A stretch of 34,781 nucleotides of DNA from Thermoprotei archaeon (GTDB lineage Archaea > Thermoproteota > Thermoprotei > Thermofilales > B69-G16): contig QMRG01000006.1 in NCBI GenBank assembly GCA_003649235.1, forward strand, positions 1-34,781, in the 5' to 3' direction. The position numbers and the translations under genes are program-made. The notes under the pieces were generated by a model. The model did not search any database. It was not told the DNA's origin and was given only the letters and a program-made list of their open reading frames with translations. Shown piece after piece: positions 5,346 to 29,610 of this stretch. Positions within the stretch are counted from its first letter, which is position 1; every line of letters starts with the position of its first letter.

Positions 5346-5351
5346 TTTCTT

Positions 5352-6800
5352 TTATCCTTTTGTCACGCCTATAGGTCTGAGTCTAACCACTAAAGTTGCT
5401 ATACCTACTTCATGACTTACTTTGGCAACTCTATCCACATCTTTGTAAGCGTCAGGAGCCTCCTCGGCAACAACTCTCATACTGGCGGCTCTCACTACAA
5501 TACCATGCTTCTCCAAATCCCTCAATATCTGAGTAGCTCTAAAAGACCTAACCGCTGCCGCTCTGCTACGTAATCTCCCAGCTCCATGTGCTGTAGATCC
5601 AAACGTTATATCCATGGCGGAAGGTTTGCCTAGCAGTATATAAGATGCCGTACCCATGGAACCGGGTATTAGGACTGGTTGGCCTATATTCCTGTACTTC
5701 TTCGGTATTGCTGGATGCCCTGCTGGAAAAGCTCTTGTAGCGCCTTTTCTATGCACGTAGACTTTAGCTCTCCTCCCATCTACTTTATGTTCTTCTAGCT
5801 TTGCTATGTTGTGAGCAACATCATAAATTATATGCATATCTAGGTCATCTGCCATTTTTCTAAAAACGTGTTCAAAAGCTTGTCTCGTCCAATGCATTAT
5901 CATTTGCCTATTGGCCCATGCAAAGTTTGCGGCAGCAGACATTGCAGCAAAGTATTCTTCCGCTTCTTTGCTAGTTACTGGGACGCTCACTAACTCTCTA
6001 TCGGGTAGAGGCATTCTATAGCGTCTTACAGCGTGCTCCATAACTTTTAGATAGTCGCTGCAGACTTGATGGCCTAGTCCTCTACTGCCAGTATGTATCA
6101 TTACTGTTATCTGTCCTTCTTCGTATATTCCCATAAGCTTAGCGGCTTCTCTATTGTATATCTTATCTACGACTTGGATTTCGAGGAAGTGATTTCCGCT
6201 GCCGAGAGTGCCTAGCTGGTTTTTGCCTCTACTTTTCGCTCTATGGGATACCCTATCTGGATCTGCCGTCACCATATGTCCGTTTTCTTCTATATAGTCT
6301 CTATCCTCGGGCCATCCGTAGCCCTGGTCTATAGCCCAGTCTACTCCTTCGGCTAAAACTCTATCGAGCTCACTTATGCTTAAGCTGACCTTACCAGTTG
6401 ATCCTAAACCAGAAGGTACGTAGCGGAATAAGGTGTCTATGAGTTTTCTCAAATGTGGTTTAACATCTTCAAATGTTAAATTAGTTCTAAGTACTCTAAC
6501 TCCACAGTTTATATCGTAACCTACGCCTCCGGGACTTATCACTCCTTCTTCCGCATCGAAAGCTGCTACTCCACCTATCGGGAAACCGTATCCTTGATGA
6601 CCATCAGGTAGCACTATGGAATATTTATATATACCTGGCAAATGGGCAACATTTGCTGCTTGAACTAAGGTTAGATCACTTTTCATTTTGGCCAATAACT
6701 CTTCGTCAGCAAAAATGCGTGCTGGTACTTTCATTCCTCTTTTATATGATTGAGGAATTTCCCATATGTATTTGCCTATTCTTTTTAATGGCACATCCAT
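5352..6800 (-). CDS. rtcB: RNA-splicing ligase RtcB
   Basis: GGVGYDINCGVRVL, GSGNHFLEIQVV, HTGSRGLGHQVC, YDVAHNIAKLEEH, HRKGATRAFPAGHP and LIPGSMGTASYIL. No intein interruption. Confidence 0.97.
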   Translation of the reverse strand: MDVPLKRIGKYIWEIPQSYKRGMKVPARIFADEELLAKMKSDLTLVQAANVAHLPGIYKYSIVLPDGHQGYGFPIGGVAAFDAEEGVISPGGVGYDINCGVRVLRTNLTFEDVKPHLRKLIDTLFRYVPSGLGSTGKVSLSISELDRVLAEGVDWAIDQGYGWPEDRDYIEENGHMVTADPDRVSHRAKSRGKNQLGTLGSGNHFLEIQVVDKIYNREAAKLMGIYEEGQITVMIHTGSRGLGHQVCSDYLKVMEHAVRRYRMPLPDRELVSVPVTSKEAEEYFAAMSAAANFAWANRQMIMHWTRQAFEHVFRKMADDLDMHIIYDVAHNIAKLEEHKVDGRRAKVYVHRKGATRAFPAGHPAIPKKYRNIGQPVLIPGSMGTASYILLGKPSAMDITFGSTAHGAGRLRSRAAAVRSFRATQILRDLEKHGIVVRAASMRVVAEEAPDAYKDVDRVAKVSHEVGIATLVVRLRPIGVTKG

Positions 6801-6843
6801 TATACCACCAGTAGTGTAAGGTTTTATTGAGATATTAACATTT

Positions 6844-6860
6844 TTATACTTGAAGTATAA
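6844..6860. promoter_or_regulatory. 17-bp perfect palindrome TTATACTT-G-AAGTATAA in rtcB/mrp divergent region
   Basis: Direct reading. Confidence 0.4.
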
Positions 6861-7050
6861 TTTTATATTCTAAATATAATATATAGTTAAAAATATTATA
6901 TGAAAAATTTAAAAATCTCTTTATTATATTTAAAAATTTTAAGTTTATATCCTAACTGTTTTACATATTTTTAACGATTACTCGATTTTTGACGTATCTT
7001 AGAGTAATAAACAATTAAATTTAATACCTACCTTCAGGAATTAAGTTACC

Positions 7051-7887
7051 ATGTCAGAAAAAAGCATTGTATCTTTACAGAAAATTCGTGAAGTTATAAA
7101 GGAACGGATGAAGAACATTAAATACAAAATAATGGTTTTAAGCGGAAAAGGAGGAGTAGGTAAGAGCATGGTTACTGCAAATCTCGCTGTAGCGTTATCA
7201 TTGAAAGGCTATGATGTTGCTATTCTAGACGCTGATCTTCATGGTCCTACAATCCCGAAAATGTTTGGTATAGAAAATGAAACAATAACAGGTTTTTCTG
7301 CGGGAATAATTCCTGTTACTACTGGAAATAAGATAAGTATAGTTTCAATTGATTTTATGCTACCTAGTGAAGATACTCCAGTTGTTTGGCGTGGTCCTAT
7401 TAAAACTAAAGCTATAATGGAATTTCTCAGCTCAGTTGTATGGGGTTGTAAAGATTTTTTATTGATAGATCTACCTCCAGGTACTGGTGATGAAGCGTTA
7501 AGTATTGCTCAATTCATACCAAACGTAGATGGAGTTGTTATAGTAACTATTCCATCTCTAGTTTCTCAACACGTAGTTAGGAAAGCCATATCTTTCGCTC
7601 AAAAACTGGATATACCGATATTAGGCATTATTGAAAATATGTCGTATTTTCGATGCCCCCAATGTGGCCAAATTCATTACATATTTGGCGAGAAAGGAGG
7701 AGAAGCTATCGCAGAAGAAATGAACATCGATTTCCTAGGTGCTATTCCTATAGACCGTAGAATCGCCGAATGTTCTGATAGAGGAGAATCGTTTCTAGTT
7801 AAATACCCTGATTCCGAAATTGCTAAAAGTTTTATGAATATTGCTGAACAAATCATCAAGAAAGTAGAAAATAGAAAAAATGGATAA
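7051..7887 (+). CDS. Mrp/NBP35-type P-loop ATPase, Fe-S cluster carrier
   Basis: Deviant Walker A VLSGKGGVGKS, DLPPGTGDEALS and C-terminal CPQC motif. Confidence 0.94.
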   Translation: MSEKSIVSLQKIREVIKERMKNIKYKIMVLSGKGGVGKSMVTANLAVALSLKGYDVAILDADLHGPTIPKMFGIENETITGFSAGIIPVTTGNKISIVSIDFMLPSEDTPVVWRGPIKTKAIMEFLSSVVWGCKDFLLIDLPPGTGDEALSIAQFIPNVDGVVIVTIPSLVSQHVVRKAISFAQKLDIPILGIIENMSYFRCPQCGQIHYIFGEKGGEAIAEEMNIDFLGAIPIDRRIAECSDRGESFLVKYPDSEIAKSFMNIAEQIIKKVENRKNG

Positions 7888-7892
7888 ACGCG

Positions 7893-7968
7893 AATAGTAT
7901 AGTCGGCAAAGATATAAGTTTATATTTCTCTTTGCAGCTCTACGGCATTTCCCGTAATACTATTTTTT
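7893..7968 (+). ncRNA. Candidate structured RNA: three-way junction followed by T-run
   Basis: P1 AATAGTAT(7893-7900)/ATACTATT(7957-7964); P2 GCAAAG-ATATA(7906-7916)/TATAT(7921-7925)...CTTTGC(7930-7935); P3 TACGG(7941-7945)/CCGTA(7952-7956); then TTTT. Confidence 0.5.
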
Positions 7969-8022
7969 CAGAAGTACAGGCAAAAATCCCATATATACTG
8001 GAGCTCGCAGTTGATATTATAT

Positions 8023-8039
8023 TTTATACAATGTATAAA
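8023..8039. promoter_or_regulatory. 17-bp perfect palindrome TTTATAC-AAT-GTATAAA upstream of HTH gene
   Basis: Direct reading; it lies about 35 bp upstream of the start at 8075 and may overlap the promoter. Confidence 0.4.
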
Positions 8040-8074
8040 TTTATAGTATGACAATAATTATAGCGGTGATATAA

Positions 8075-8530
8075 TTGAGGATTAGAGTTAGGCGAAGAAT
8101 TACTATCGAGGAGTTGTGGAAGATTATTAATGAATATGAGTATTCTTTCGGTACTCCCGACAGGCTAAGACGCGAACTCTTAGTTTCACAAGATGAAAAA
8201 CTAAAGGGTAAGTTAGACGAATGGATCAATGCATTAAATGCTCTTAGAGAATATGAGGAAGATGGAGAGGAGAATTTTATTAAAGAAGAAGAAGTAGATC
8301 CTGCTGTAGTTAGAAGGCTATTGACCGATAATATGGTTAAGCTTTTGAAAGAGATTGAAAATGGAGTTGCTTCGATAAGCGAATTAGCTAGGAAAGTTAG
8401 ACGTTCAGTTCCCAATGTGTACAGTGATCTTCAGTTTCTGTATAGAAATGGATTTTTAGGTTTTCAGAAAAGAGGGAAGCATGTAGTACCCTATCTACTA
8501 TTAGAGGAGGTTATAATAGACTTTCGCTAA
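8075..8530 (+). CDS. Winged-helix/HTH domain protein (putative transcriptional regulator)
   Basis: ISELARKVRRSVPNVYSDLQFLYRNGFLGFQKRGKHVVPYL resembles an ArsR/MarR-like wHTH. TTG start. Confidence 0.75.
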   Translation: MRIRVRRRITIEELWKIINEYEYSFGTPDRLRRELLVSQDEKLKGKLDEWINALNALREYEEDGEENFIKEEEVDPAVVRRLLTDNMVKLLKEIENGVASISELARKVRRSVPNVYSDLQFLYRNGFLGFQKRGKHVVPYLLLEEVIIDFR

Positions 8531-8576
8531 TGAACGGCAAGCCGTTAGAATTATATGTGTGTTAATAGTTTAATCC

Positions 8577-9023
8577 GTGGTTGAAATTGTGAAAAAAGAA
8601 GAAGTTGCTCAAAAGATTAGCGATTTTCTGGGTAAAATGGATTTACGCTATGACTACGATGAAAAAAATAATAATTTCTCGATACATTTTGACGTAAAGT
8701 TTGGAGAGGAAGTTCTTCATTTTCAAGTTTTTGTCTTTTATAATGAAGATTGGATATCTATTGTAGCTCCTTTAATAAGAGAAAGTGATTTACCTAAAGA
8801 AGTAGATAAACTGGAGTTTTATAAGAAGCTACTTAGAGAAACATATTATTTGAATGAAGTTACCTATGGATTAACCGAAAACGACGATATTGTCGTTCAT
8901 GCAGAAAGTGCTACTCAAGCGTTAGATTTTGAGAATTTTAAAGTAGAATTTTACAGCGTGGTATACGGTATAGAACACTTCTTGAATGAAGTCATACCGA
9001 GTGTATTCGCGGCTAGTGAGTAA
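8577..9023 (+). CDS. Hypothetical protein, possibly YbjN/type III chaperone-like alpha-beta fold
   Basis: Clean 148-aa ORF in the same direction as its neighbours. The fold assignment is only a pattern impression. Confidence 0.65.
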   Translation: MVEIVKKEEVAQKISDFLGKMDLRYDYDEKNNNFSIHFDVKFGEEVLHFQVFVFYNEDWISIVAPLIRESDLPKEVDKLEFYKKLLRETYYLNEVTYGLTENDDIVVHAESATQALDFENFKVEFYSVVYGIEHFLNEVIPSVFAASE

Positions 9024-13732: not shown

Positions 13733-14854
13733 CTATCCGAGCAAATTAGAGATCTTGTCTATTGCTTTGAGTCCAAAGCCTGTAAGCGGGAGAAGTATTC
13801 TTTCTCCTCTTTCTATGATATTATTCTCTTTCAATTTTTCAAAGGCAGCTAGTGCTGTGGCAGACGTAGGTTCTACAAATAGCCCCCATCTAGCCAACCG
13901 GTATAGCGCTTCAATTATTTCCCTGTTATTTACTACGACTATATCTCCATGAGTCTCTTTTAATCTATAGGCTATCTGATATCTTCTAGGAGGATTGGGG
14001 ACTGCTATTCCATCTGCTAGAATTTTGCTCGGCTTCTCTCCTCTATAGCCTGGATGCAGGATCTCGTAGACTGTTGTGAAACCTTCTGCCTGAACTCCGT
14101 AAATTCGTGGCATTTGTTTAATAGCTCCTATTTCTAATAAGTCTCTAAATCCTTTGTATATGCCTAGAGCCAGTCCACCGCTACCTATGGGAACAATGAG
14201 AGAGTCCACGTCTCCGAATTGTTCGAATGATTCATAGGCTATGGTTTTTAAACCTTCTATAAAAAATGGACTCCATAAGTGGCCAGCATAGAAGCTTTTT
14301 TCAGCAGCTTTTAACGCTTCATTATGTACATGCGCTCTATCTCCACTCACTTGGATAACATCGGCGCCATAGCTTTTTATCTGTAGAACCTTTGGGTGAG
14401 GAGCTTTTTCAGGTACGTAGATACGGCACTTTATGCCCGCCGCTGCCGAGTAGGCAGCGATAGCTGCGCCAGCGTTGCCAGAAGAATCTTCGACTATATC
14501 CTTTATTCCAATACTAGCTAAGTGGGATATCAGTGTTGATGCTCCTCTATCTTTAAACGATCCGGTTGGGTTTAAATATTCTAGTTTAAGCAAGAGTACC
14601 GTGTTTCTGTAATTTTTCTTTATTATAGGCGTCCATCCTTCTCCTATAGAAATTAAGCATTTTCTACTTACTGGTAGTAATTCCCAGTATCTCCACATAG
14701 TATGAATACGGCTTTTTACCTGTTCAAAATAGTCTGTACTTTCCTCAATATGAATTGATATATCTAAGAAGTTTCCGCAGTAACACTTCCATATCTTAGA
14801 TTCTATAGGATATTCTCTTTTACATTTCGAACATAAGAGCTTGAAAGATGCCAT
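13733..14854 (-). CDS. thrC: Threonine synthase
   Basis: N-terminal Zn finger CSKCKREYP...CYCG, PLP Lys motif NPTGSFKDRGASTLIS, VPIGSGGLALGIYKG. ORF extends to 14932, but ATG 14854 avoids overlap with the upstream gene and precedes the Zn finger. Confidence 0.94.
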   Translation of the reverse strand: MASFKLLCSKCKREYPIESKIWKCYCGNFLDISIHIEESTDYFEQVKSRIHTMWRYWELLPVSRKCLISIGEGWTPIIKKNYRNTVLLLKLEYLNPTGSFKDRGASTLISHLASIGIKDIVEDSSGNAGAAIAAYSAAAGIKCRIYVPEKAPHPKVLQIKSYGADVIQVSGDRAHVHNEALKAAEKSFYAGHLWSPFFIEGLKTIAYESFEQFGDVDSLIVPIGSGGLALGIYKGFRDLLEIGAIKQMPRIYGVQAEGFTTVYEILHPGYRGEKPSKILADGIAVPNPPRRYQIAYRLKETHGDIVVVNNREIIEALYRLARWGLFVEPTSATALAAFEKLKENNIIERGERILLPLTGFGLKAIDKISNLLG

Positions 14855-14879
14855 AATTCTATACACGTATAGAAAGAAA

Positions 14880-15212
14880 TTAATGTTTACATCTTTTATA
14901 GGGGCACGTTTTGACGTATACGAGCGTGCCATTACTCAACAATCTATACGTATAGGCGCAACCATACGTTAGTTTTTCTTCACCTATGTTCCAAGTATTA
15001 ATCATTAAATTCCAAGAAAATGTTCTAATTTCGATTAATCCTATATCGTCGAGTTTTCTGCCTAACTTGAACTTATCAGCTTGAATTTCTGCGCATTTCC
15101 AAGCTTCTACGCTATATCTTAAAACTACAAATCTCGAATTCGTATACAAGAAGAGCATGGAAGATAGGGCAATAACAAATATTAGCACAGTCGCTACTAC
15201 GTCTAATCTCAA
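14880..15212 (-). CDS. Single-TM small exported protein, putative minor pilin-like component
   Basis: N-terminal hydrophobic segment VVATVLIFVIALSSMLFLY followed by a short Cys-containing beta-rich ectodomain. Starts at the 3' end of the TadC-like gene (4-bp overlap). Confidence 0.7.
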   Translation of the reverse strand: MRLDVVATVLIFVIALSSMLFLYTNSRFVVLRYSVEAWKCAEIQADKFKLGRKLDDIGLIEIRTFSWNLMINTWNIGEEKLTYGCAYTYRLLSNGTLVYVKTCPYKRCKH

Positions 15213-16444
15213 ATTCCCACACCGAGTAGATTTGGAGTTATTATAAGTGCTAGATCGAAAGCTATCAACATTAGCGAGGAAATGAACGGCAGGTAGAGAA
15301 ACGAGTATAGAGGATTTCCCTCTCTACTCGATGATGTAGAAATGGAGAGAGAAATTGCATTTAATGCTAGTACGATATCCAGACTTTCCTCTAGTCTCCA
15401 TATAATACTACTGCTGGGAATATAGACTCCAGCATATCCAAAGGTAGGCAGCGAAGAGAAATATCTGAGAATTACGAGTATTATCCCGTAGATCAACGCT
15501 ACTGCTCCAGCTTCGATAAAAGCGTAGACAAGCATTACCAGGGTCTTCGACCTAAGTTTTTTAAATGCCTCATAATACCTATTTACAAAATTTTCAAGCC
15601 TTCGAATATATTCTCCGACTTTACTCCCACTGTATAGAATTAAAAAATAAAGCGCCGTAGTAGAAGCAGCAGCTACACCATACCATTTTTCGCTCAAGAG
15701 ATAGTCCGGATCATCTATCCCTAGACATTTAAATATATTGAAAGGACATGAAGCTGCTTTTCTGACTAAAATTAAAGCTTCTTCCAGTACATCTTTTAAT
15801 TTCCTAATGTCTAAGTACAGTGATAGCGATAGAGGGAGAGAGAGTATTAGAGAAGCTAAAGCTGGCTTATCAAAACCTATGTACTTAAGTATAACATATC
15901 CGACCGGGAGTAGGAATGCTAGAAAAAATTTCTTCTTACAGCGCAAAGGTAAATGCATTTCTAGCGGATAGATAGTTAATCCTGCGAAGCTAACTGGCAA
16001 TGCCAGTAGAGCAAATGCTATAAGTGATACTAAAGCGGCTTCTCCATTGGTGAAAAAAAGCACACTGGCTATGATACTGGGCATTAATGTAGTAAAGACT
16101 GATATAAACTGATAGAATTGAGATATGTTGTAGTCAGCTAATTCAAGACTCACTTCTATATCTTTTAACTCTTGTTCAAAACTTCGTACAAGTATCTCTC
16201 TATCTCCGGAGATTTGAGATTCATAGGCAGCTCTTAAGACTTTTTTAAAGCGATTGCTATAATTATCGCTAGCCTCTTTTTCAAAAATAGAATCTAAGTT
16301 TTTCACGTAATCTAATCTGCCCATGTTTTTTAGCTTATACAGAGTGGTGAGAGGAGGAAGAGGTGAAGATGCTAAAAGTATATAGAGTGGAAGCGCCTCA
16401 TTTTCGCTTTTAATCCATTCAGAAATTTTTAAAAAAATAGGCAT
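15209..16444 (-). CDS. Type II secretion F / TadC-like polytopic membrane protein
   Basis: Multiple TM segments with a cytoplasmic T2SF-like domain; encoded 3' of a pilin and TadA-like ATPase. Confidence 0.78.
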   Translation of the reverse strand: MPIFLKISEWIKSENEALPLYILLASSPLPPLTTLYKLKNMGRLDYVKNLDSIFEKEASDNYSNRFKKVLRAAYESQISGDREILVRSFEQELKDIEVSLELADYNISQFYQFISVFTTLMPSIIASVLFFTNGEAALVSLIAFALLALPVSFAGLTIYPLEMHLPLRCKKKFFLAFLLPVGYVILKYIGFDKPALASLILSLPLSLSLYLDIRKLKDVLEEALILVRKAASCPFNIFKCLGIDDPDYLLSEKWYGVAAASTTALYFLILYSGSKVGEYIRRLENFVNRYYEAFKKLRSKTLVMLVYAFIEAGAVALIYGIILVILRYFSSLPTFGYAGVYIPSSSIIWRLEESLDIVLALNAISLSISTSSSREGNPLYSFLYLPFISSLMLIAFDLALIITPNLLGVGI

Positions 16445-16458
16445 TTAAAGACCACCGC

Positions 16459-16851
16459 TCAACCTAAAACTTCTACTGTAATTTTCTGTTCTCCATCAGG
16501 GGTTCTAACTATTCCTGGAATACTCTCGCCTATAGTAAAAACTCCACCTGTTAAATCGATTATTACATTTATTGCTTCTCCTTTAGCTATGGTTACACTC
16601 TGACTTCCAGTAGCGCCGTTAGCTAATACAACGCTAACAGTCCCGCTGAAATCTTCAGTCCCATCGTTGCGTAAAGTCATGTAAAGACTTGAGCCTACAA
16701 CGTATGCTCCGGGTTCCGCGTAGATAAGAGGTTTTTTCACCGCACTACTCGTTGTCGCTATAACATACCAAGACACGAGAGCCGCTGATACTAGGAAAGC
16801 GACTACCACCAGAACTACTACTATTGGCGGAACTCCTCCTTTCCTGTTCAT
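16459..16851 (-). CDS. Archaeal type IV pilin (class III signal peptide)
   Basis: MNRKGGVPPIVVVLVVVAFLVSAALVSWYVIA resembles the archaeal RG-x-x-P prepilin pattern; beta-rich body. ORF track start is 16896; ATG 16851 places RKGG at the N-terminus. Confidence 0.85.
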   Translation of the reverse strand: MNRKGGVPPIVVVLVVVAFLVSAALVSWYVIATTSSAVKKPLIYAEPGAYVVGSSLYMTLRNDGTEDFSGTVSVVLANGATGSQSVTIAKGEAINVIIDLTGGVFTIGESIPGIVRTPDGEQKITVEVLG

Positions 16852-16892
16852 TATTTCACCAAGAATCGAGTTCGGTAAATTATAAAAGCGGA

Positions 16893-18104
16893 TCAAAACT
16901 CAGAACTTTGGACTTTTCTCTTTAAAAGTGAATATGCGGAATCGAAATCTCCTATCATAATTCTTTCAGAGAAGAATCTCCTGAATCTTTCTTCAGACGC
17001 ATGAACTCCTCTTTTATATAATGCAACGAGTTTATCATCGTAGGTTAGGTAAACACCCTCTACTTCTCTATGGATAATGCCTCCCACCACAAACTTTTTC
17101 ATAACTACAATACAATCTACAAGTTGCATTACAGTTTCTACAGTTGCATCTTTGATACTCTGTCTCATTAGTTCGGCCATGCTAAAGATTGCCTTTTTAG
17201 CATTTGGAGAGTGATAAGTAGTAAGCGCAGCTATCCCCAATCTACCTGCTTCAATCCAACTCCAGATTTCTTCTCCTCTTAGCTCTCCTAGTACTAGAAT
17301 ATCCGGTCTCTCATAACGCATGCTTTGTCGAATAAGCATAGTAACTGACGTGTTTGGACCTGCTTTGCTGTAAGCAATATTGCTCATGTTTTTCAAGTAA
17401 ATCTCTTTCACCTGTTCGATTATTGAAATTCTTAGATGGGGAAATATAGAAGTTATTTCGTCTAGTAAGCTCGATAAAAGAGTGGTCTTTCCTGAACCAG
17501 CTGGACCTACAATTACAACGACGCTTGGTTTTAGTATTATCATAAGTAGTCTAGCGGCAAGGATAGGGTCTATAATTTTGCTAAGTCTAGGTATGTTTAC
17601 GACTTTTGTCGCAGTCATTTCGATGTCATCGCTTATTAGAGGAAGCTTGAAATAGAGCCTCCATCCGTCGATTTCAGCTTCAGATTGTGGTTTGGAGTAA
17701 TCTATCCGAGCCCCGGATTTTATAACTAATTTATTGATAGTTTTTTCCGGTTCGAAATTTTTTATGTAGACTTTGTATCTTCTCCCTCTAATAGTGGCCC
17801 ATACTCTGTTTCCTCTAACAAAGATTTCTTGAGTTTCAGGAAATTCTACTATTGGAGCTAAAGCTCCCCATATGGGATTTTTCTCTAGAGGATATATGTA
17901 GATAATATCTTCGTTTAAAATTATTTTTCCACTTTTACAGGTAATTACCTTCATATACTCCTTAATATCTAAGGCATCTCTTGAGAAAAACTCATTCTCA
18001 TCATTTATTCTAATACTCTGTCTTTTTAATTTCATTTTAACTTTTTCTCCTCTTTTTTCCATTTTATCCAATTTTTTCTTTAATAATTGAAAAGAACGTA
18101 ACAT
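16893..18104 (-). CDS. Type II/IV secretion system ATPase (TadA/VirB11/ArlI superfamily)
   Basis: Walker A VVIVGPAGSGKTTLLSSLL, Walker B-like ILVLGELRGEEIWSWIEAGRLG and His-box TTYHSPNAKKAI. Confidence 0.92.
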   Translation of the reverse strand: MLRSFQLLKKKLDKMEKRGEKVKMKLKRQSIRINDENEFFSRDALDIKEYMKVITCKSGKIILNEDIIYIYPLEKNPIWGALAPIVEFPETQEIFVRGNRVWATIRGRRYKVYIKNFEPEKTINKLVIKSGARIDYSKPQSEAEIDGWRLYFKLPLISDDIEMTATKVVNIPRLSKIIDPILAARLLMIILKPSVVVIVGPAGSGKTTLLSSLLDEITSIFPHLRISIIEQVKEIYLKNMSNIAYSKAGPNTSVTMLIRQSMRYERPDILVLGELRGEEIWSWIEAGRLGIAALTTYHSPNAKKAIFSMAELMRQSIKDATVETVMQLVDCIVVMKKFVVGGIIHREVEGVYLTYDDKLVALYKRGVHASEERFRRFFSERIMIGDFDSAYSLLKRKVQSSEF

Positions 18105-18106
18105 AT

Positions 18107-18859
18107 TTAACGCCTCAAAATGGTGCTTATTTTAAATAAATTTTTTAACGATTTAGTTTTCCTACCAGAGTCTTTAGGTTTAAGAATTTCAAGCGCTAGT
18201 ACGACTAAGCTCTCCTGCGTTTTACGGGAAAGGTTAAGAAGAACCATTGTCAAGTTTTCCGGAGATAGCAGTGGGAGGTAGGGATCGAAAGGTATTATGA
18301 AACATTTGTCGTGAAATTCTTCTATAAGAGTTTTATATTTTTCAACTCCTAAATCTCTGTTTAATACTGGTATCGTCCTACACTTTCCGACATAGGCTTT
18401 ACTTACAGAATGTATAACCACGCTGTTTGGATTATACACTAAAACTGCTACATCACATGCATCAATGAAAGGATCATATTCGCCGTTTTGATATGCTGGA
18501 ATATCAAGAATAGCGATATCGAAAAACGTCTCAATTCGCTTGAAAGAGCTTTCTATAGTTGAAAATGATACTTCAGGTAGGTATCCATTATTTGGTATTA
18601 GATAGAAGCTTAGATTTTTATCTCTAAGCGTTATTTCACACTTCAAAATAGCATCCGTTATAGATCTTTTATGTAAAACATCCCGTAAATATGGTGGAGG
18701 AGGAGTATTTAACACCATATGAGAGCTATTACCTTGAACACCTGTATCTATCAAAATTACTCTCTTTCCTACGCCAGCATAGAGTATGGTTAATAATATT
18801 GACATTGTAGATTTCCCAGTCCCGCCTTTGCATCCCGATGTTAAACAAACCTTTAGCAT
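18107..18859 (-). CDS. ParA/MinD-superfamily ATPase (possible TadZ-like)
   Basis: Deviant Walker A CKGGTGKST and switch FDIAILDIPA. First gene of the pilus ATPase/pilin operon. Confidence 0.85.
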   Translation of the reverse strand: MLKVCLTSGCKGGTGKSTMSILLTILYAGVGKRVILIDTGVQGNSSHMVLNTPPPPYLRDVLHKRSITDAILKCEITLRDKNLSFYLIPNNGYLPEVSFSTIESSFKRIETFFDIAILDIPAYQNGEYDPFIDACDVAVLVYNPNSVVIHSVSKAYVGKCRTIPVLNRDLGVEKYKTLIEEFHDKCFIIPFDPYLPLLSPENLTMVLLNLSRKTQESLVVLALEILKPKDSGRKTKSLKNLFKISTILRR

Positions 18860-18946
18860 TCTCCTCTTACGATATGTGAAGAAGAGTAAATAAGCTAGGC
18901 AACTCTGCTCGGCTTAAATCACCTATTTCACAAAATTAACGAGAAT
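18860..18946. promoter_or_regulatory. Compact bidirectional promoter of the pilus-like locus
   Basis: Only 87 bp separates the divergent genes. TATA-like CTTAAAT (18912-18918, + strand) and CTTATTTAC (minus strand, about 18889) each sit about 26-30 nt from their ATG. Flanking TGTGAA/TTCACA inverted arms. Confidence 0.5.
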
Positions 18947-19936
18947 ATGAGAAAGCTCAGCTTGTTAGTAATAACTTTGCTAGCTATTACATTGTCGTCG
19001 TTGCTGTGGAATGGAGTGAATAAACTAGATAGAGAAAAATCGAAAACTGCGACAATAGAAAATAGTTATAGATCTGACAATAAGTGTCGATTAAGACTAC
19101 GTTTTAAAGGAGAAGGAATTGTCAGCATTAATGACGTCAACTACACGAGTGATATAATTTTGAATTTTACAGCAAATAGTTATGTGAACTTGTTGGCATA
19201 CAATTCGGAAAATTCATCTCATAGATCGTTTTTTGAATATTGGAAGATTAATGATAAGAAAGTTGAAGAAAATCCTCTAACACTATACTGTGAGGATACT
19301 TTTGAGGTAATCTCTGTTTTTAGGGTGAATACCAAAGAGGAGGAAATCTATGGCAAGCCTCTTATCTCGCTCTTAGACTTCGAGAACATAGCCTTAATGA
19401 TCGAAAACGAAGATGATTACGTGTATTTAGAAGATGGATACTTGAAGTTTAAACGTGGGTGCGTGTTTATACCATTAAAAGAGCCTCTGCCGCTCTTTAA
19501 TAATAATTCTAGCTGTTGGATTAAACTCTCTCGAGTAAAAGCTAGAGTATTTTCCACTGCGCGAGGCGAAGAAGGTGTAATGGAAGATTTCATGCTGTTT
19601 CTAGTATTGGATAAGAGAGTTATTCTAGAAAACATTCTCGAAGGCCCCATAGTAGCTATTGGCTATTGGTATTCCGGAATAGGAGGAAAATGCTATGTTG
19701 TAAAGAGGTTCTTCTTCTATGACGGACAAGGAAAGCCCAGGCTAGAATACCTGGCTATTCTTCGTGAAAACAAGTTAAGAGATAATGTTGCGGTTGATGT
19801 ATCAGATATATTATCTCGGAATTTTCTTCCTCTTGAGTTATTCCGTGATAGGTACGTAGTAGGTATCTATATTTTTGGATATGATGAAGGATTTGTGGAT
19901 TTTAGAGATTCAATACTAGAATGCGGAGGTGGCTAG
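18947..19936 (+). CDS. Exported/membrane-anchored protein with InlB-repeat-like domain
   Basis: N-terminal signal/TM RKLSLLVITLLAITLSSLLW; VNLLAYNSENSSHRSFFEYWKINDKKVEENPLTLYCEDTFEVISVF. Confidence 0.75.
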   Translation: MRKLSLLVITLLAITLSSLLWNGVNKLDREKSKTATIENSYRSDNKCRLRLRFKGEGIVSINDVNYTSDIILNFTANSYVNLLAYNSENSSHRSFFEYWKINDKKVEENPLTLYCEDTFEVISVFRVNTKEEEIYGKPLISLLDFENIALMIENEDDYVYLEDGYLKFKRGCVFIPLKEPLPLFNNNSSCWIKLSRVKARVFSTARGEEGVMEDFMLFLVLDKRVILENILEGPIVAIGYWYSGIGGKCYVVKRFFFYDGQGKPRLEYLAILRENKLRDNVAVDVSDILSRNFLPLELFRDRYVVGIYIFGYDEGFVDFRDSILECGGG

Positions 19937-22551
19937 ATATTAGGAAACTCGTGTTTTTAATATTCTCTCTATATGTTCTCTTTATCTTTTCAAGTATTGT
20001 ATCATCCGTAACAAACTTTCATGTTCATGCATATACTCCTAATTACGAAGATCATACAGATATCACGGTTAAAAACATAAAGATAGAGGGGTTAGAGCCT
20101 AACTCAACTTATAAAGTTACTTTTAACTATATAGCACAGGTTCAGTACAGCGTATATAGCGAAAATGGCTATGTGGCAGCTGGATGGTTTAATACTAGAT
20201 TTTTACACCGTAATGGAGTACAGTTGGATAAACGAGAGACAGTAAGCGGCACATTCTCCATGACAGGGTATACTGGTGCTTCAAATTTCCTAATTTTCGA
20301 AGTAGAACTATGGGCCGAAGCTGATGGAGGGGAGCTCTATAGCTATGATGTCGCGGTTATAGATGTAATCGCCGAAGTTGAAATATCTTCTATTGAAAAA
20401 ATTAGTGATGATGGTGGAGATAATGGCGGTGGAGGAGGGGGAGGAGGAGGCAAAAAATCCAAGTATAGTGGCTTGACTGTTAAAGCTGCAGATCAGAAGG
20501 GCCATATTTTGTATCATGTTCCGATAAACGTCTCGGGTTACCGAGAAGGTGTCTACAAGACACCATTTACTATCTTCCGTAAAAGCGTTGTAGATAGCAG
20601 TTTTTCGGTAGTTCTAGTAGCTCCCCAGAAATTAGTTTTTGGAAGTAAAGTTAGATATTTCATAAATTGGAGTCTTAAACCAGCATGGACCTATAGGACT
20701 AAATGGTATCAAAATAATACTATTCGAGTATTCATCCCCGATAATGCTGAGTATATAGCAACTGCCTATTACGGTAAGCGGTATTACTGGTATTGTTTGG
20801 AAGTGAAGTCGAATATTCCTGTTTTGATAAGCTATGAGGGTAATATTGGTCTGGGGAGTAAATACACGAATTTTACGCTATATAGAGAATCTCCAATAGA
20901 TGATGGTTTAACGGTAATTTTAAAGGCTCCTGAGCAGGTTTCCTACAATGGATCTTTATGGTTTTTCGATAAGTGGGTTTATAAAATACCTATATATTCA
21001 AAAGAAAAAGAATTATATGATAATATTGGAGAATTCTCATGTCCGAGTCAAGTTGCGAATAAAGGCGTTGTTATAGCTATTTATAAGCGGACAGTTAAGC
21101 TTACTGTTGAATCTTATCCTATAAAAGGAATTCCTATACAGATCTGGCACGATGATTTGTTTATGGTGGACTACACTGATTTCGTTTTAAGGAATTTGAG
21201 CATAGGTGATATCGTCTCTCTGCGAGCTCCTGAGCATTTCGCTATTAATGATGAAGAATATTATTTTTCTCATTGGCTAGTAAACGGAAAGAGAGTGAGT
21301 AATGAATTAATTGAAGTATTCATGACAGGAGATAAGAGAGTTGTAGCCTATTACTATAAAAAGGAATGGGGAGGAAGGAGGGAAGCTAATTTAAAGGGTG
21401 AATGGCTTATACCAGGCGAATCGATCAATATAACGCTGCCCTATCCTGGAGTTTACACGATTAAAGTTACTCCTTACTATAATATTAGCAAGAGACTCAC
21501 AGCATTGGTGGTTGCTAATAATGCCAGCAAATACGCGTATATTGACCTGGATAATTTAACTTTAACTACTCGAGTCCCCTTTATCTCAAAGAAAGGGTCT
21601 ATGCATGTTTCAATTAGGGAATTGAAGAACTTTCCGGTGATCGCTAGCGGAGAGTATAAAGGTTGGTATTTTCTAGGAGCTTCGGCTTGGACCCCGAGTG
21701 TTGAAAGTTCAGGTATAAATTTAGATACTATAATTTTCGATGAGAAACATTGGGTAACTTACGCCGTTTATAATATAACTGTTACATGGCGTGACTTTGA
21801 TAGCTTTCCGATACGAAAACATTATTTGAAAGTAGAGTCTCTCAACGTTAAAACCTGGTCGAAAATTATAGTTATAACTAGCCTTAATTTTACGCTATGG
21901 TCTTTCTATGATAGAAACGGAGTATATATTGTATGGGAGGCCTACTATAGATATCTGCCTCCTCCCGAGTTGAACTTGTCATTAGAGCCTCCTCATCAAG
22001 ACGTTTGGTTTACGCTAGAGCATGGGAATGACATCGTTATCTCGCAACGTTTAGGTAAGGGACGTAAATACTATGGAGTAGGCAATGGAACCGTTTTTAG
22101 CGACGCTTACCTTCCCTACGATTATATTATCGAGGAATATGGTTTAAATCACTTAGTGTTTAAGGCTAGAGTTAGATGGTCCGGTCCTCTCGGTTCTCCA
22201 GTAAATATTGTTCCGTTTAGCAAAGAAAAGGATATTCATTTAGTCCCTCTATGCCTGAAGCTTCTCGAGATAAAGGAAAAACCGTTACACTTGGTTTTTA
22301 AGTGGACTCTCTTCAATAAAACGCCGTTGCCAGCGTATTCTCGTCTTTTCTGTCCGTGTGTGAGAATAGATGTCTTTACAGAGTGGGATGGCAAACTTTA
22401 CGAAAATGTTGGCGTTAAATCAAAGTACGATTATACAGTATACATTGTAGATTTAGATGTTGATATAACATGGCCTAGGCGTATAACGATATTCTTCATA
22501 CACTCTAGAACTAAAGACTTGGTTCTATTAGTTCCGAGCGTAAAACTATGA
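19921..22551 (+). CDS. Large secreted/surface beta-rich protein with poly-Gly linker and repeated domains
   Basis: N-terminal TM LVFLIFSLYVLFIFSSIV, GDNGGGGGGGGGKK linker, at least three internal repeat units and many N-x-S/T sequons. Confidence 0.8.
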   Translation: MRRWLDIRKLVFLIFSLYVLFIFSSIVSSVTNFHVHAYTPNYEDHTDITVKNIKIEGLEPNSTYKVTFNYIAQVQYSVYSENGYVAAGWFNTRFLHRNGVQLDKRETVSGTFSMTGYTGASNFLIFEVELWAEADGGELYSYDVAVIDVIAEVEISSIEKISDDGGDNGGGGGGGGGKKSKYSGLTVKAADQKGHILYHVPINVSGYREGVYKTPFTIFRKSVVDSSFSVVLVAPQKLVFGSKVRYFINWSLKPAWTYRTKWYQNNTIRVFIPDNAEYIATAYYGKRYYWYCLEVKSNIPVLISYEGNIGLGSKYTNFTLYRESPIDDGLTVILKAPEQVSYNGSLWFFDKWVYKIPIYSKEKELYDNIGEFSCPSQVANKGVVIAIYKRTVKLTVESYPIKGIPIQIWHDDLFMVDYTDFVLRNLSIGDIVSLRAPEHFAINDEEYYFSHWLVNGKRVSNELIEVFMTGDKRVVAYYYKKEWGGRREANLKGEWLIPGESINITLPYPGVYTIKVTPYYNISKRLTALVVANNASKYAYIDLDNLTLTTRVPFISKKGSMHVSIRELKNFPVIASGEYKGWYFLGASAWTPSVESSGINLDTIIFDEKHWVTYAVYNITVTWRDFDSFPIRKHYLKVESLNVKTWSKIIVITSLNFTLWSFYDRNGVYIVWEAYYRYLPPPELNLSLEPPHQDVWFTLEHGNDIVISQRLGKGRKYYGVGNGTVFSDAYLPYDYIIEEYGLNHLVFKARVRWSGPLGSPVNIVPFSKEKDIHLVPLCLKLLEIKEKPLHLVFKWTLFNKTPLPAYSRLFCPCVRIDVFTEWDGKLYENVGVKSKYDYTVYIVDLDVDITWPRRITIFFIHSRTKDLVLLVPSVKL
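20407..20451 (+). repeat. Low-complexity GGN codon run encoding poly-Gly linker
   Basis: gatgatggtggagataatggcggtggaggagggggaggaggaggc encodes DDGGDNGGGGGGGGG. Confidence 0.9.
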
Positions 22552-23120
22552 ATTCTCAAATGCTCGTAGTATTAGCGTTATTAATATCCTCCATGCTAGC
22601 TTTAGCGCTGGCTACAACTCGCCTAGCTTTTGAAACAGGGAAGATAGATTTCAGAGATGTTGTAGAATTGCGAGAAAGACTGTGCTTTGACAGGTCAGTA
22701 TTCGTTAATTTCAAAGTCTTCGTTTTCAAGGAGAAGCACGTATTGGAAATTTGTGTTGAAAATGGATGTAGAAGAATAACAATAGCCGAGGCGAGAATAA
22801 TTGCTCCCATCAGTTCTTCTCCTTTAATCGAACCGGTAGATTTTAGAGAACGGAGAGAACTTTTTGCTCTATATTCTAACGGGACTCATGCTGGTATCTA
22901 TACTGGAGTTCAGCTGGAATTCACGGATGGAGAATTGATTATAACATACATCGAGCCGGAACGTATAGGCAGTACGCAGAGACTTGTACTTTCGAGAGAA
23001 TTGATAGATGATATCGTTATCTACGTAGAGGATGCAACTATATTGATAGATGGAGAAAAGATTGCCGTGGTCAATGGATTTAAGAAAATAAGAATAAGGA
23101 AAGTTGTTTTGTCACTATAG
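22548..23120 (+). CDS. Single-TM small exported protein, pilin-like
   Basis: MNSQMLVVLALLISSMLALALATTRLAF at the N-terminus; ATGA overlap with the preceding gene. Confidence 0.75.
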   Translation: MNSQMLVVLALLISSMLALALATTRLAFETGKIDFRDVVELRERLCFDRSVFVNFKVFVFKEKHVLEICVENGCRRITIAEARIIAPISSSPLIEPVDFRERRELFALYSNGTHAGIYTGVQLEFTDGELIITYIEPERIGSTQRLVLSRELIDDIVIYVEDATILIDGEKIAVVNGFKKIRIRKVVLSL

Positions 23121-23154
23121 CTTCCTTAAATCTTTTATTTCACATTTTAGATTG

Positions 23155-23466
23155 ATGAATCTAGATGAAGTTTTGATAGTTGCAGCTTCTGTACTAGCCC
23201 TAGCTCTTACACTACAATTAGGATATTCTATGCTTAACGCTGAAGACTTAGTTTACAAAGAGGAAATATTGTATTTGGTAAATGTTTCTATGTTATCTCT
23301 TAGTCCCGGGTCTAGTTTAAAGTTATGTTTGCCTTATCCTATAGCCTTTAATAGCTCTGATTTAAAAGAATGTGGAGTCCCGGCTTATGGTCGAGTTGGC
23401 GGTTCTTGTTTGGAAATAACAAAGAGTTATGATGGAGTGGCAGAGGTGGGGATATGCGAGCCTTAG
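23155..23466 (+). CDS. Single-TM small exported protein, pilin-like, 4 Cys
   Basis: MNLDEVLIVAASVLALALTLQLGYSML, with C-terminal SCLEITKSYDGVAEVGICEP. ORF starts at 23104; ATG 23155 is preferred. Confidence 0.72.
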   Translation: MNLDEVLIVAASVLALALTLQLGYSMLNAEDLVYKEEILYLVNVSMLSLSPGSSLKLCLPYPIAFNSSDLKECGVPAYGRVGGSCLEITKSYDGVAEVGICEP

Positions 23467-23786
23467 AGGCGGTAGCTATTTCAGTGATATTTGTAATTTT
23501 TAGCGCATATTTTCACGTGATCGCTGTTTATAAGCCTCCTTCGCTACACGTGTATTCGGTAAATAGAGCTTTAGCGTGGCTTTTGTTACGTTCGGATTCT
23601 CTGCCGTATACTGGAAAATTGAAAGGGCTTATAGTCGAGTTGATCCCAAGTGTCGTATACTTCGACGATGGAGAATCTATCATTTATTTTAGAGACTCGG
23701 CTAGAGTTTACAGTTTTAGAATTGTTTGGCTCGGTTATAATGGAACGCTTTCACCCAGAGTAGTGGTGGTAGGCGTTGAACCGTAA
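23454..23786 (+). CDS. Single-TM small exported protein, pilin-like
   Basis: MRALEAVAISVIFVIFSAYFHVIAVYKPPS. Overlaps both neighbours by about 12 bp. Confidence 0.72.
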   Translation: MRALEAVAISVIFVIFSAYFHVIAVYKPPSLHVYSVNRALAWLLLRSDSLPYTGKLKGLIVELIPSVVYFDDGESIIYFRDSARVYSFRIVWLGYNGTLSPRVVVVGVEP

Positions 23787-24375
23787 AGGGCAGATTCTAC
23801 TCTTAGCCATAATTTTCTTAGCTTCTGTCTTATTATATTCGACGAGCCGTCTGAAGAAGCCAAGTCCAAATTTCCTAGAATACAATGGAGAATTACAATC
23901 AGCAGAACTTATTCACATAGCCAGGTTATACTGGAGTAGCGAAAATAGTACTATAGATCGTCTCTTAACTATTCTCTATAGTTTGTCTAATGAAAATAAA
24001 GTAAGCATGCCGATTGTATCTTATAAGTGCAATTTTACTCTGGTTCCAGGACAACGTGGTTATGCATGGTATTATACAGTATACAATAATTCCGTATCAT
24101 TTCGGGCTTATTGGAGTTGGGAGTTTAAAGGTTTTTACATTAAAAATCTTTATGGAGAAAAATTGCTGTATAAGAGTTATTTACTTATCTATTACCACAA
24201 TTATACAGCTCCGCAATGGGATTCTATGATAATCTATCCATCATTAGACGACGATATGCGAATAGCTGATTTAACCTATTTTGGAGAAGGAATTTGGAGT
24301 ATAGGTTTCCCTGCACGCTATACTGAGTATATTTTTGTTGATGAATACGGACTAAAGGTGGTGGTGAAGGAATGA
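23776..24375 (+). CDS. Pilin-like protein with class III-type signal (MNRKGQ)
   Basis: TTG start; MNRKGQILLLAIIFLASVLLYS resembles an archaeal prepilin peptidase substrate. Confidence 0.75.
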   Translation: MNRKGQILLLAIIFLASVLLYSTSRLKKPSPNFLEYNGELQSAELIHIARLYWSSENSTIDRLLTILYSLSNENKVSMPIVSYKCNFTLVPGQRGYAWYYTVYNNSVSFRAYWSWEFKGFYIKNLYGEKLLYKSYLLIYYHNYTAPQWDSMIIYPSLDDDMRIADLTYFGEGIWSIGFPARYTEYIFVDEYGLKVVVKE

Positions 24376-24767
24376 ATGTAGCCTATGCTATTTATCTCTC
24401 AAGTTTTCTATTTTCGCTAATAATAGCGTTTTCAACGATTAGTATTCTTAAACCTCCAACTCAGTATCGAGCTTCAATAGCTCAGCTTGTGTGCGATATA
24501 TGTACGGTATATCGAAACCCAGGCAGTCATGTATTCGGCTTCTATGATTTTAGAGGAGGTGAAGTCGCTATTGGCAATAATGTCATATTGTTGGAAAAGA
24601 GAGAATTATGGATTTTCCCATATTGCGGAAGACAGGAAGATAACATTATCTATCTTCCAATAGAAGTTGATTTTCCATTTAAAGTTAGTGGATTGTCGTG
24701 TCTAAAGCTTGAGAATATAGACGGTAAAGTTTACGTATCTCTCTGTGAGGTGGTGGGGAATGATTGA
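24372..24767 (+). CDS. Single-TM small exported protein, Cys-rich, pilin-like
   Basis: MNVAYAIYLSSFLFSLIIAFSTISILKPPT, with C-terminal SCLKLENIDGKVYVSLCEVV. Confidence 0.72.
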   Translation: MNVAYAIYLSSFLFSLIIAFSTISILKPPTQYRASIAQLVCDICTVYRNPGSHVFGFYDFRGGEVAIGNNVILLEKRELWIFPYCGRQEDNIIYLPIEVDFPFKVSGLSCLKLENIDGKVYVSLCEVVGND

Positions 24768-25008
24768 TTTCTTAAAAAAGATTTTTCTGAGGATGCTAAC
24801 TAAAGATGATAAGAAAAAAGAGATTTTACTGATAGCTAAAAGGACTAGAGAAATCATCAAAGTTGAAAAGCGTTTTTCTAAACCTTCAGTTAGAACAAGA
24901 TTTCCCGAGATGTTTAAAATGCTAGAACTTAGCCTAAAATATGGCGTACCAGTGAAAAGGATTGAGCAGAATGGGAGATACTTTTGGATAATAGAAGTAG
25001 AAGAGTAA
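24760..25008 (+). CDS. Small basic soluble protein, last gene of the operon
   Basis: MIDFLKKIFLRMLTKDDKKKEILLIAKRTREIIKVEKR...; no TM. ATG 24760 is preferred over 24745. Confidence 0.65.
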   Translation: MIDFLKKIFLRMLTKDDKKKEILLIAKRTREIIKVEKRFSKPSVRTRFPEMFKMLELSLKYGVPVKRIEQNGRYFWIIEVEE

Positions 25009-27171: not shown

Positions 27172-29610
27172 TTAGCTAAAGATTTGTCCAGTATATAAGT
27201 TAACTAGTGGTTGATAATTCCCTTTATCAATTAAAAGGGGAATCCAGAGAATAGCAGAGTGCAGTATTTCAACCTCTCTCTTACTAGGTTTAATATCTAT
27301 TTTCTTGAATTTGTCAACATTAACCTCGTATTTTTCAATTACCTCGGCTAGTTCCCGCTTCATTTCAGCTTTTAAAAACTCGAATTCTCTCTCCAAGTTT
27401 CTAACTTCTTCCTCTAATTGTCGTAATTTCTTCTTTTTAATTCTAATTCTTTCTCTAATTCTCTCAGCTGTGGATAGTTTCGTTAGAGAAGAACGCCTCC
27501 TAAAAACTGAGAATATAACATCAGCTCCTTTTACAGCAAGAAGCTTCTTTAACTCTGCGATCTCCGCATTTAATAACTCTATTTTCTCTTTTTTATTATC
27601 GATCTTACTCTTCAATTTTTCTAGCTTTTTTGTATAAGAAGATTTCTTCTTTTCAAACTCTTTATCCATTAATTCTCTGAGAACTTTTCTGACCTTTAAC
27701 GCAAAAGAAGAAAGAGATTCTCCTGGCTCTGAGTATATTTTTAATCCTTCATAGGTAAATATCGATATTCTATAGTTTGTTACTATGAAATCTTTAGCCA
27801 TTCTTATCAATCTTTTACAGAAACTATTTTTAGAATAAGAATCCGAAAGTTCGAAAAATCTAAAATCTTTCTCCCAGTCAGAAGAGAAATCTGAAACATT
27901 AATGTCTTTTGCCGTTAAACCTAGAATCCTATTTCTTGCAAAATCTTTTAAAGATAGATTGTCTTTAGCTTCAACAAGCAGGATAATTCTATCTTCATGA
28001 CTAATCCGCGGTCTGCTCTTGTTCATAGATATCTTTGCTTCAAAGAATAAAAGTGGATAGTATGCTTTAACACCTTCTAACTCAATTTCTTTCTGAACTG
28101 GTAGGAAATAACTATCTAATACACTTCCTATTTTCGGTGGAAGTGCGAGTAACTCGCCGTGTTCCTCCCCGGCTTTTATCCCAACATGTGGGACTTCTAT
28201 TTTATCCTTAAAATCTTTCATGAAATTCTCTATTTGCATCAGCGTTAGAGGTCCACGCAAGTAGGTTAAAGCCCATCGCGTTTTAAAGAGTATATGTTTA
28301 TTTTCATGGACATTGTGTACTAGAAAAACTCTTTTAGCAAGCGAAGATATTATCCTCGATATCTCTCCTTCCTTAATACTCGTTCCGGCCGTTGAAGAAG
28401 CAAGCTTTAATCCTTCCATTACCCTAGCTTTATCATTTTCCGTCTGTAATCGTCCAATCATCCAGATTCCAGCATTTGTAAGAGCTTTATAGTCTATGTC
28501 TACAGGGTTCTGAGTGGATAAAACCACGCCTACACCGAAAGCTCTTGCCTGTTTAAGTAAAAGCATGAGAAGATGTTTGGAAGGAGGATTTCGAGGATAA
28601 GGTGGTATATATCCATAGACTTCGTCAAAATATACCAGTGTTCTTAATTTAGAAGAACCAGCTTTTCTAAACATCCAACCATAGAGATTTTGAAGCACTA
28701 ATGTTACAGCGAACATTTTCTGTTGCTCGTCTAAATGCGCTAAATAGAAAACTACGGCTCTTGGTTTACCATCGGAAGTCCATAACAACTTATCGAAGTC
28801 GAGAGGCATTCCTTTGATCCAATTTCTGAAAGTAGGTGAGGCTATAACTCTATTCAAAGCGATTACTAGCTCTCGCCTATCTTTTTCAGATATAAACATA
28901 TCTACATCAATAACTCCAATTCGATTGAAAGGAGGATCTAGCACGTACGCTAGAAGCCTGTTGAAATCTACATGCTCTCCTTTACGCCAACAATATTCCA
29001 GTATATGAGATAATAAAATATGCTCATTACTTTTTAGAGGATCCGACTCTCTCCCAGCGAGCTGCAGCAAAGCTGAAACGATATTCTTTATCTTTTCAAG
29101 CAGAACCTCTCCGTGCTCCTCCCAATTTAAATCCTCTGGCATATTGAGATCATGAATTACAGAAATAGGAATACCAGCATCACTTCCAGGAGTTAACACT
29201 ATTACCTCACTGTTCTCTGTAAGCTTCCTCGCCTTATCTATACTCTGCCCATAGCTCTCTATACCCTTGCGCCACATTTTCGCCAATCTTTCTGCATATT
29301 CTTCGGGAGTTAAGCCCTCTTTTCTGGCTTGGATAGGATCAATCCATTTTAAAAATTCCTTCATAGAATAGTTAGAAGGTCTCAGCATTACATTTACAGC
29401 ATCGCCTTTAGGGTCAATAATTACCACTGGTATCCCCTGTAGCAGTAGTTCTTCTATAAGAACCACTGCCGCTCCCGTCTTACCGGATCCTGTCATTCCT
29501 ATTATAATTCCATGCGTCGTCAAATCGTCGGGATCCAGCATATACGGTTTATCTAACTCTTCCAATTTTGAAGGATCTACTAGTCTCCCTACGTATAGTC
29601 CTTTACTCAA
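27172..29610 (-). CDS. HerA-like (DUF87) ATPase with C-terminal coiled coil
   Basis: Walker A GMTGSGKTGAAVVL, PVVIIDPKGDAVN, LVYFDEVYGYIPP, QARAFGVGVVLSTQNPVDIDYKALTNAGIWMIGRLQT and long Lys/Glu coiled coil. Confidence 0.9.
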   Translation of the reverse strand: MSKGLYVGRLVDPSKLEELDKPYMLDPDDLTTHGIIIGMTGSGKTGAAVVLIEELLLQGIPVVIIDPKGDAVNVMLRPSNYSMKEFLKWIDPIQARKEGLTPEEYAERLAKMWRKGIESYGQSIDKARKLTENSEVIVLTPGSDAGIPISVIHDLNMPEDLNWEEHGEVLLEKIKNIVSALLQLAGRESDPLKSNEHILLSHILEYCWRKGEHVDFNRLLAYVLDPPFNRIGVIDVDMFISEKDRRELVIALNRVIASPTFRNWIKGMPLDFDKLLWTSDGKPRAVVFYLAHLDEQQKMFAVTLVLQNLYGWMFRKAGSSKLRTLVYFDEVYGYIPPYPRNPPSKHLLMLLLKQARAFGVGVVLSTQNPVDIDYKALTNAGIWMIGRLQTENDKARVMEGLKLASSTAGTSIKEGEISRIISSLAKRVFLVHNVHENKHILFKTRWALTYLRGPLTLMQIENFMKDFKDKIEVPHVGIKAGEEHGELLALPPKIGSVLDSYFLPVQKEIELEGVKAYYPLLFFEAKISMNKSRPRISHEDRIILLVEAKDNLSLKDFARNRILGLTAKDINVSDFSSDWEKDFRFFELSDSYSKNSFCKRLIRMAKDFIVTNYRISIFTYEGLKIYSEPGESLSSFALKVRKVLRELMDKEFEKKKSSYTKKLEKLKSKIDNKKEKIELLNAEIAELKKLLAVKGADVIFSVFRRRSSLTKLSTAERIRERIRIKKKKLRQLEEEVRNLEREFEFLKAEMKRELAEVIEKYEVNVDKFKKIDIKPSKREVEILHSAILWIPLLIDKGNYQPLVNLYTGQIFS

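Follow-up and report, generated by a model that had tools for sequence, protein, structure and literature searches.

Two operons that face away from each other occupy positions 14880-25008 of a 34,781-nucleotide stretch of DNA from a Thermoprotei archaeon (contig QMRG01000006.1, assembly GCA_003649235.1; the whole stretch is called the window). The operons raise the question of whether they build a single machine, and what that machine would do. The window locus is a real, coherent pilus locus whose link to DNA exchange can be tested. Judged by the tests applied here, its identity as a type IV pilus is very probable. Both operons likely build one chromosomal type IV pilus, which would most likely serve cell contact for DNA exchange. 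The DNA-exchange contact role, taken alone and drawn by analogy, is put forward tentatively. It is proposed because many relatives have this gene block next to a Ted-type (VirB2/VirB6/VirB4) module. This linkage lies outside the window and is the main new point of the analysis.

The divergent operons and the pilus core

The genes are named here by strand: TMp110, TadC, pilin, TadA, and ParA lie on the minus strand, and S329 to S87 lie on the plus strand. The window genome (1.81 Mb, 220 contigs, 84% complete) belongs to a genus of three genomes (G000-G002), within an order inferred in the analysis to be Thermofilales. All open reading frames (ORFs) listed earlier for 14880-25008 were recovered with the same coordinates, strands, and lengths. 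As the initial annotation had claimed, the minus-strand operon (14880-18859) carries ParA/MinD, TadA, pilin, TadC-like, and one-transmembrane (one-TM) genes. The plus-strand operon (18947-25008) carries, also as claimed, eight genes of 329, 876, 190, 120, 110, 199, 131, and 87 amino acids (aa), whose neighbouring ends overlap or have a few bases between them. The shared promoter region of 87 bp was found as an intergenic gap of exactly this length between both operons (18860-18946). Coding bias was measured against the sister genome G002 and was present in 13/13 genes, with 0.42-0.53 differences per codon at third positions and 0.02-0.26 at second positions. The whole gene set is retained in both other genomes of the genus. 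Two starts were moved, judged by homologues: that of the pilin to 16851 (MNRKGG...), its ORF having first been called at 16459-16896 on the minus strand, and that of S120 to 23155 (MNLDEV...).

The locus is identified as a type IV pilus because the genome encodes a prepilin peptidase and the pilin has profile matches to solved archaeal pilins. The major pilin is PilA-like and is encoded on the minus strand at 16459-16851, with 130 aa from the corrected start and the class III-type N-terminus MNRKGGVPPIVVV. Its profile matched the solved archaeal filament proteins 8fk7 (E-value 2.4e-6), 8q30 (2.6e-5), and 6w8u (7.5e-5), and its homologues matched PF01917/PF07790 weakly. These matches, with the RKGG leader read from the alignment, bear out the class III signal pilin of the initial annotation. 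The prepilin peptidase (PF01478 and PF06847) was found in the window's own genome at G000:C40.

The TadA/VirB11-type secretion ATPase (16893-18104, minus strand, 403 aa) matched PF00437 with 65.9 bits, at a cut-off of 24.9. Walker A and other columns are invariant in its alignment. In the tree, from which G061 was left out, TadA falls in a clade of 17 order members with a support of 98/97. The ParA/MinD-family ATPase (18107-18859, minus strand, 250 aa; PF01656, 37.2 bits, E 3.2e-9) adjoins TadA in nearly all relatives, and would have a TadZ/FleN-like positioning or regulatory role. The TadC-like platform protein (15209-16444, minus strand, 411 aa) has 5-7 TM segments by hydropathy, and its topology and place in the operon suit a platform protein. 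Its profile matched, over 370 columns with an E-value of 7e-15, the membrane proteins directly after TadA in the genomes G030 and G027. These proteins matched short TadA-adjacent membrane proteins weakly, at about 1e-5. The earlier label of a Tad-like locus stands for the ATPase, while the TadC identity is reached only via distant profile links.

A second TadA match in the same genome (G000:C9) was considered as a pilus paralogue and was rejected: it is a soluble ATPase with extra domains and housekeeping neighbours. A pattern scan of genome contigs with the Walker A motif was dominated by bacterial TadA proteins. A scan of viral contigs with TadC gave no matches.

The plus-strand proteins and their co-occurrence with the core

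The first two plus-strand proteins are related to each other. S329 (18947-19936) is secreted or anchored, with an N-terminal hydrophobic segment, and its profile also detects S876. An S329 homologue lies beside pilus genes in another family (G027, E 6e-15). S876 (19921-22551) is a large exported protein, also with an N-terminal hydrophobic segment, and its relatives of roughly 830-1130 aa are located upstream of S190. From its position, its topology, and analogy, S876 is proposed as an adhesin or surface/tip protein.

Downstream lies a conserved five-gene block of small one-TM proteins, which starts with S190 (22548-23120) and continues with S120 (23155-23466), S110 (23454-23786), S199 (23776-24375), and S131 (24372-24767), the last membrane protein of the block. 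It is followed by S87 (24745-25008), a small soluble protein whose position is taken in some relatives by other soluble proteins of 67-79 aa. At the far end of the minus-strand operon is TMp110 (14880-15212, minus strand), a one-TM protein of 110 aa. The N-terminal motifs of the S proteins and TMp110 were read from alignments. S120 carries a DE motif in most homologues. S110 begins with MRxLEA, with conserved R2 and E5; M-R-x-x-E is present in nearly all of its 20 homologues, and a glutamate at position 5 is found in 9/105 other ORFs with an N-terminal TM segment. S110 homologues occur in three other families. S199 is a predicted minor pilin with the class III-type N-terminus RKGQILLLA, in which Q6 is invariant in 8 homologues, and [KR]GQ followed by a hydrophobic run is seen in most of 20. 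TMp110 starts with M[RK]xD; D4 is invariant in 13 homologues, [RK]-x-D is present in nearly all of 15, and a pilin-like role is suggested. By hhalign, S110 and TMp110 are similar over near-full length (E 1.3e-4), and the S190-S120 and S120-S131 pairs are similar more weakly, with hydrophobic bias as a possible contributor to all of these values. Position, topology, and analogy suggest that the small one-TM proteins of the plus strand act as minor pilins.

None of the plus-strand proteins, S329 and S876 included, matched any family above the Pfam cut-offs, and profile searches of the Protein Data Bank (PDB) with S199, S190, and S876 gave nothing credible. The earlier remark that the plus-strand families are not recognisable was borne out. 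The initial annotation had named unrelated enzymatic folds as an objection to a single machine; no enzymatic family was matched in these Pfam and PDB profile searches.

Iterative profiles built from the loci of relatives recovered both operon sets in one locus in many genera, with varying orientation. The order in G021 is TMp110-TadC-pilin-TadA-101 aa-ParA facing S876-S190-S120-S110-S199-S131. Full or contig-limited versions of the locus are present in G004, G010, G014, G019, G020, and G022, and pieces of it are spread over several contigs in G003. The order S190-S120-S110-S199-S131 is kept even in other families (G005, G006, and G008). S199 was found in 19/27 genomes of the order, and at a convincing E-value in 0/34 other genomes of the same search. 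The strong TadC family is present in 17 of the 19 S199-bearing genomes of the order versus 2/8 of the others (one-sided Fisher test about 0.002, calculated by hand and uncorrected for kinship). The exceptions to the pairing, G008 and G023, are fragmented assemblies.

Beyond the order, diverged core sets are carried by three further families of the class. G030, from another family of the class, has TadA, TadC, and ParA beside S110-like, S199-like, and pilin genes, and G027, from another family, has TadA and TadC beside S110-like, S199-like, and pilin genes and the S329-like gene. The matches in these two genomes reached 1e-5 for the S110-like proteins and 2e-19 and 1.5e-13 for the pilins. G033 carries ParA, TadA, TadC, S110-like, and pilin genes, and an RGQ-type protein takes the place of S199. 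G061 carries a TadA of the window family (5e-94) with ParA, TadC, S110, S190, S131, S199 (2.8e-19), and a pilin. Because of its presence in G027, G030, G033, and G061, the core pilus set appears older than the order, as judged by sequence matches. The single machine suggested by the initial annotation is supported by these results: the plus-strand families co-occur with, and adjoin, the ParA/TadA/pilin/TadC genes across the order and in other lineages.

A diverged TadC-pilin-large protein-small TM-S131 locus was observed in G009 (L257, 7505-14572) without its own TadA. The single window-type TadA of G009 sits in a Ted locus, which implies that the ATPase is supplied in trans.

The Ted module in relatives and the proposed function of the pilus

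A Ted/VirB-type module adjoins the locus in 11 relatives from three families. No more than about 1.2 kb separates the end of S199 from the start of TedC in G003, G004, G016, G017, G018, G019, G020, and G023, and the Ted genes adjoin TMp110, TadC, or TadA in G010, G015, and G025. In many relatives, S131/S87 is followed by a two-TM protein of 120-150 aa, often with a signal-peptide-like start, then by a multi-TM protein of 260-290 aa and a large membrane protein of 780-1400 aa. Several such genomes also carry an ATPase that resembles HerA/VirB4, with about 740 aa or 367 + 357 aa.

The 260-290 aa protein is TedA-like, as its profile detects membrane proteins of 290 aa in Vulcanisaeta-like genomes with E-values of 5e-10 to 1e-7 (the names Vulcanisaeta-like and Thermoproteus-like are guesses). 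The operons of these 290-aa proteins include ParA, TadA, and pilin genes as well. The two-TM protein is probably TedC-like, through a chain of profile matches. A G044 protein that adjoins TedA matches the solved TedC pilin 8dft (5e-9); the Vulcanisaeta-type TedC profile detects it weakly (E 0.004); and the Thermoproteales and Thermofilales TedC profiles match each other at about 1e-5 to 1e-6. Conserved parts of Ted may also include the large membrane protein: in the Thermoproteus-like Ted locus of G044, an 803-aa multi-TM protein likewise follows TedA (L237, 1-2409).

The arrangement of the genes around Ted varies. In the Thermofilum-type genomes G004, G009, G011, G013, and G015, a ParA-115 aa-TadA set lies back to back with the Ted module, without TadC or pilins. 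In the loci L054-L058 and L158 of such genomes, ParA-115 aa-TadA of the window family and a protein of about 470 aa with a helicase C-terminal domain lie back to back with a Ted module that holds a TedC-like protein, a TedA-like protein, a large membrane protein, and a HerA-like TedB, again without TadC or pilins. In the Vulcanisaeta-like Ted operons L202 (G050, 2136-8723) and L203 (G045, 1625-8105), TedC and TedA are immediate neighbours of pilin genes, ParA, TadA, and a gene for a multi-TM protein.

We infer the following mechanism. The major pilin (MNRKGG), and probably S199 as well, would have its class III leader removed by a prepilin peptidase. Assembly through the TadC-like platform would be powered by the TadA-like ATPase, and the ParA/MinD protein would position or regulate the machine. 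S190, S120, S110, S199, S131, and TMp110 would act as minor or tip pilin-like subunits, and S329 and S876 would form the exported surface or adhesin part. The pilus would then hold cells together so that DNA could be exchanged, much like the Ups pili that serve Ced in Sulfolobales. In the window genus, where the pilus part alone was detected, it would be an adhesion or contact pilus standing alone.

Several results weigh against this proposal. The TedA and TedC profiles, which detect the module across the order, found neither protein in the window or in G000-G002, one of these three Ted-negative genomes being 95% complete; the DNA-exchange role in the window genus is therefore indirect. The pilus set is likewise carried with no Ted detected by G005, G006, and G021. 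Ted is also absent from the stretches read of G027, G030, G033, and G061, all with the pilus set. In the tree, the Ted-linked TadA of a Vulcanisaeta-like locus falls outside the window TadA clade, and the two linkages of pilus and Ted may therefore be independent. TadC had no T2SSF match in the Pfam scan. AlphaFold models, each built from 3 sequences, had a predicted local distance difference test (pLDDT) score of 31 for S876 (unreliable; an N-terminal helix and mostly strands) and 45 for S199 (unusable), and gave no evidence for the folds of the plus-strand proteins.

A general adhesion or biofilm pilus, with the Ted neighbours in relatives as a mere clustering of surface-machine genes, is a real possibility, although it is not the favoured one. 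The Ted-negative genomes of the window genus, G005, G006, and G021, with G061 for the stretch read, are in its favour, as is the separate locus of the Ted module in G009 and G014. However, Ted directly adjoins the pilus genes in the 11 genomes from three families, and two Vulcanisaeta-like genomes hold a Ted operon that includes ParA, TadA, and pilin genes. That the two operons are unrelated and share only a promoter region is very improbable: the divergent orientation is all that speaks for it, whereas the operons co-occur and stay linked in many genomes even where the gene order is rearranged.

Two other machines would explain parts of the locus. One would be a type II-like secretion system, with a short pseudopilus built of the small TM proteins for the export of S329/S876 or of other proteins. 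This idea fits the six small one-TM subunits, among which a clear class III leader is seen in S199 alone, and the large exported proteins encoded in the same operon, but the pilin comes from filament-forming archaeal pilin families, and S329 and S876 carry their own N-terminal hydrophobic segments. Nor are these archaea known to have an outer membrane that would require such secretion, and we regard this explanation as unlikely. Alternatively, the TadA-like ATPase could drive a DNA-transfer apparatus as its VirB11-type motor, the channel genes having escaped notice through strong divergence or distance from the locus. The Thermofilum-type loci with ParA-TadA back to back with Ted agree with this, yet the TedC and TedA profiles, which work across the order (TedA also beyond it), find nothing in G000-G002, and the explanation is judged improbable.

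A mixed history of the contact pilus and the transfer apparatus is suggested because the arrangements in the relatives are complementary. A single ParA-TadA (VirB11-like) motor in the Thermofilales ancestor may have served both a contact pilus and a VirB2-type transfer pilus, with the parts later sorted between lineages. The window genus would have kept the pilus, and Thermofilum-type loci would have kept ParA-TadA beside Ted. Some of the small subunits would be leaderless pilins, with S110 (MRxLE), S120 (xLDE), and TMp110 (MRxD) carrying a Glu5-like residue directly at the translated N-terminus. We consider this history doubtful.

Comparison with known systems and neighbouring genes

Highly complex pili of Thermoproteales, equipped with MinD, minor pilins, and large secreted proteins of an adhesin or S-layer-like kind, were described by Makarova et al. 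2016, together with additional minor pilins in Desulfurococcales 4A (PMC4858521). The paper also tied the pilin loci of two Thermofilum species, tentatively, to a Thermofilum-specific ATPase clade (PMC4858521). The earlier description of the locus as an undescribed system was too strong in view of these Thermoproteales pili and Thermofilum pilin loci. With archaeal type IV pilus clade 4 (4E/4G, Thermofilum-specific, and 4A), as presented there, the locus shares the secretion ATPase, a TadC-like protein, PilA, FleN/MinD, several minor pilins that cannot be traced, and either one or two large adhesin or S-layer-like proteins (PMC4858521). It differs from that account, in the sections covered, by a fixed five-gene block of small TM proteins, traced over several families, and by the frequent continuation of this block into a Ted module. 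The same paper reports two additional membrane proteins in the 4G loci of Vulcanisaeta/Caldivirga (PMC4858521); our guess is that they are TedC and TedA.

Ted was defined by Beltran et al. 2023 in five Thermoproteales genera, with ParA noted in the loci and no mention of TadA or Thermofilum in the main text (PMC9905601). A 2025 paper on Ced and Ups found VirB4 and CedD in Thermofilales and left open which contact pilus is used outside Sulfolobales (PMC11868833). The relatives resemble the Ted/Ced systems in carrying TedC-like (two-TM, VirB2-like), TedA-like (VirB6-like), and TedB-like (VirB4/HerA-like) proteins and ParA beside the locus (PMC9905601, PMC11868833), whereas profile searches did not find the channel genes in the window or the window genus. 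The likeness to the Ups pili of Sulfolobales lies in a type IV pilus that would, here too, work together with a VirB-like system for DNA exchange. Ups pili, however, have few subunits and are described as separate from Ced, while the locus has many more and physically adjoins Ted in relatives. With the bacterial Tad pilus the locus shares the logic of MinD-like protein, TadA, and TadC; it differs in its one TadC-like gene in place of TadB plus TadC, its PilA-type rather than Flp pilin, and the lack of a secretin match in the locus.

In the main texts searched, no report of a linkage between a type IV pilus and Ted was found. Which pilus joins cells in DNA-exchanging archaea without Ups is an open question in the field (PMC11868833), and a type IV pilus whose locus lies directly beside Ted genes stands out as a candidate for the contact pilus. 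If this is true, the ParA of Ted loci would be connected with a motor of the TadA type, and one gene cluster would join a type IV pilus with a conjugation-type machine.

Two neighbouring genes in the window were also observed. An 812-aa HerA-like ATPase with a probable coiled-coil C-terminal part (27172-29610) is found near the pilus locus in 3/3 genomes of the genus. It was considered as TedB and was not accepted, its similarity being limited to P-loop/HerA. On the other side, the called start of a threonine synthase-like ORF (13733-14932) falls inside TMp110, and its homologues suggest a start near residue 27 (about 14854).

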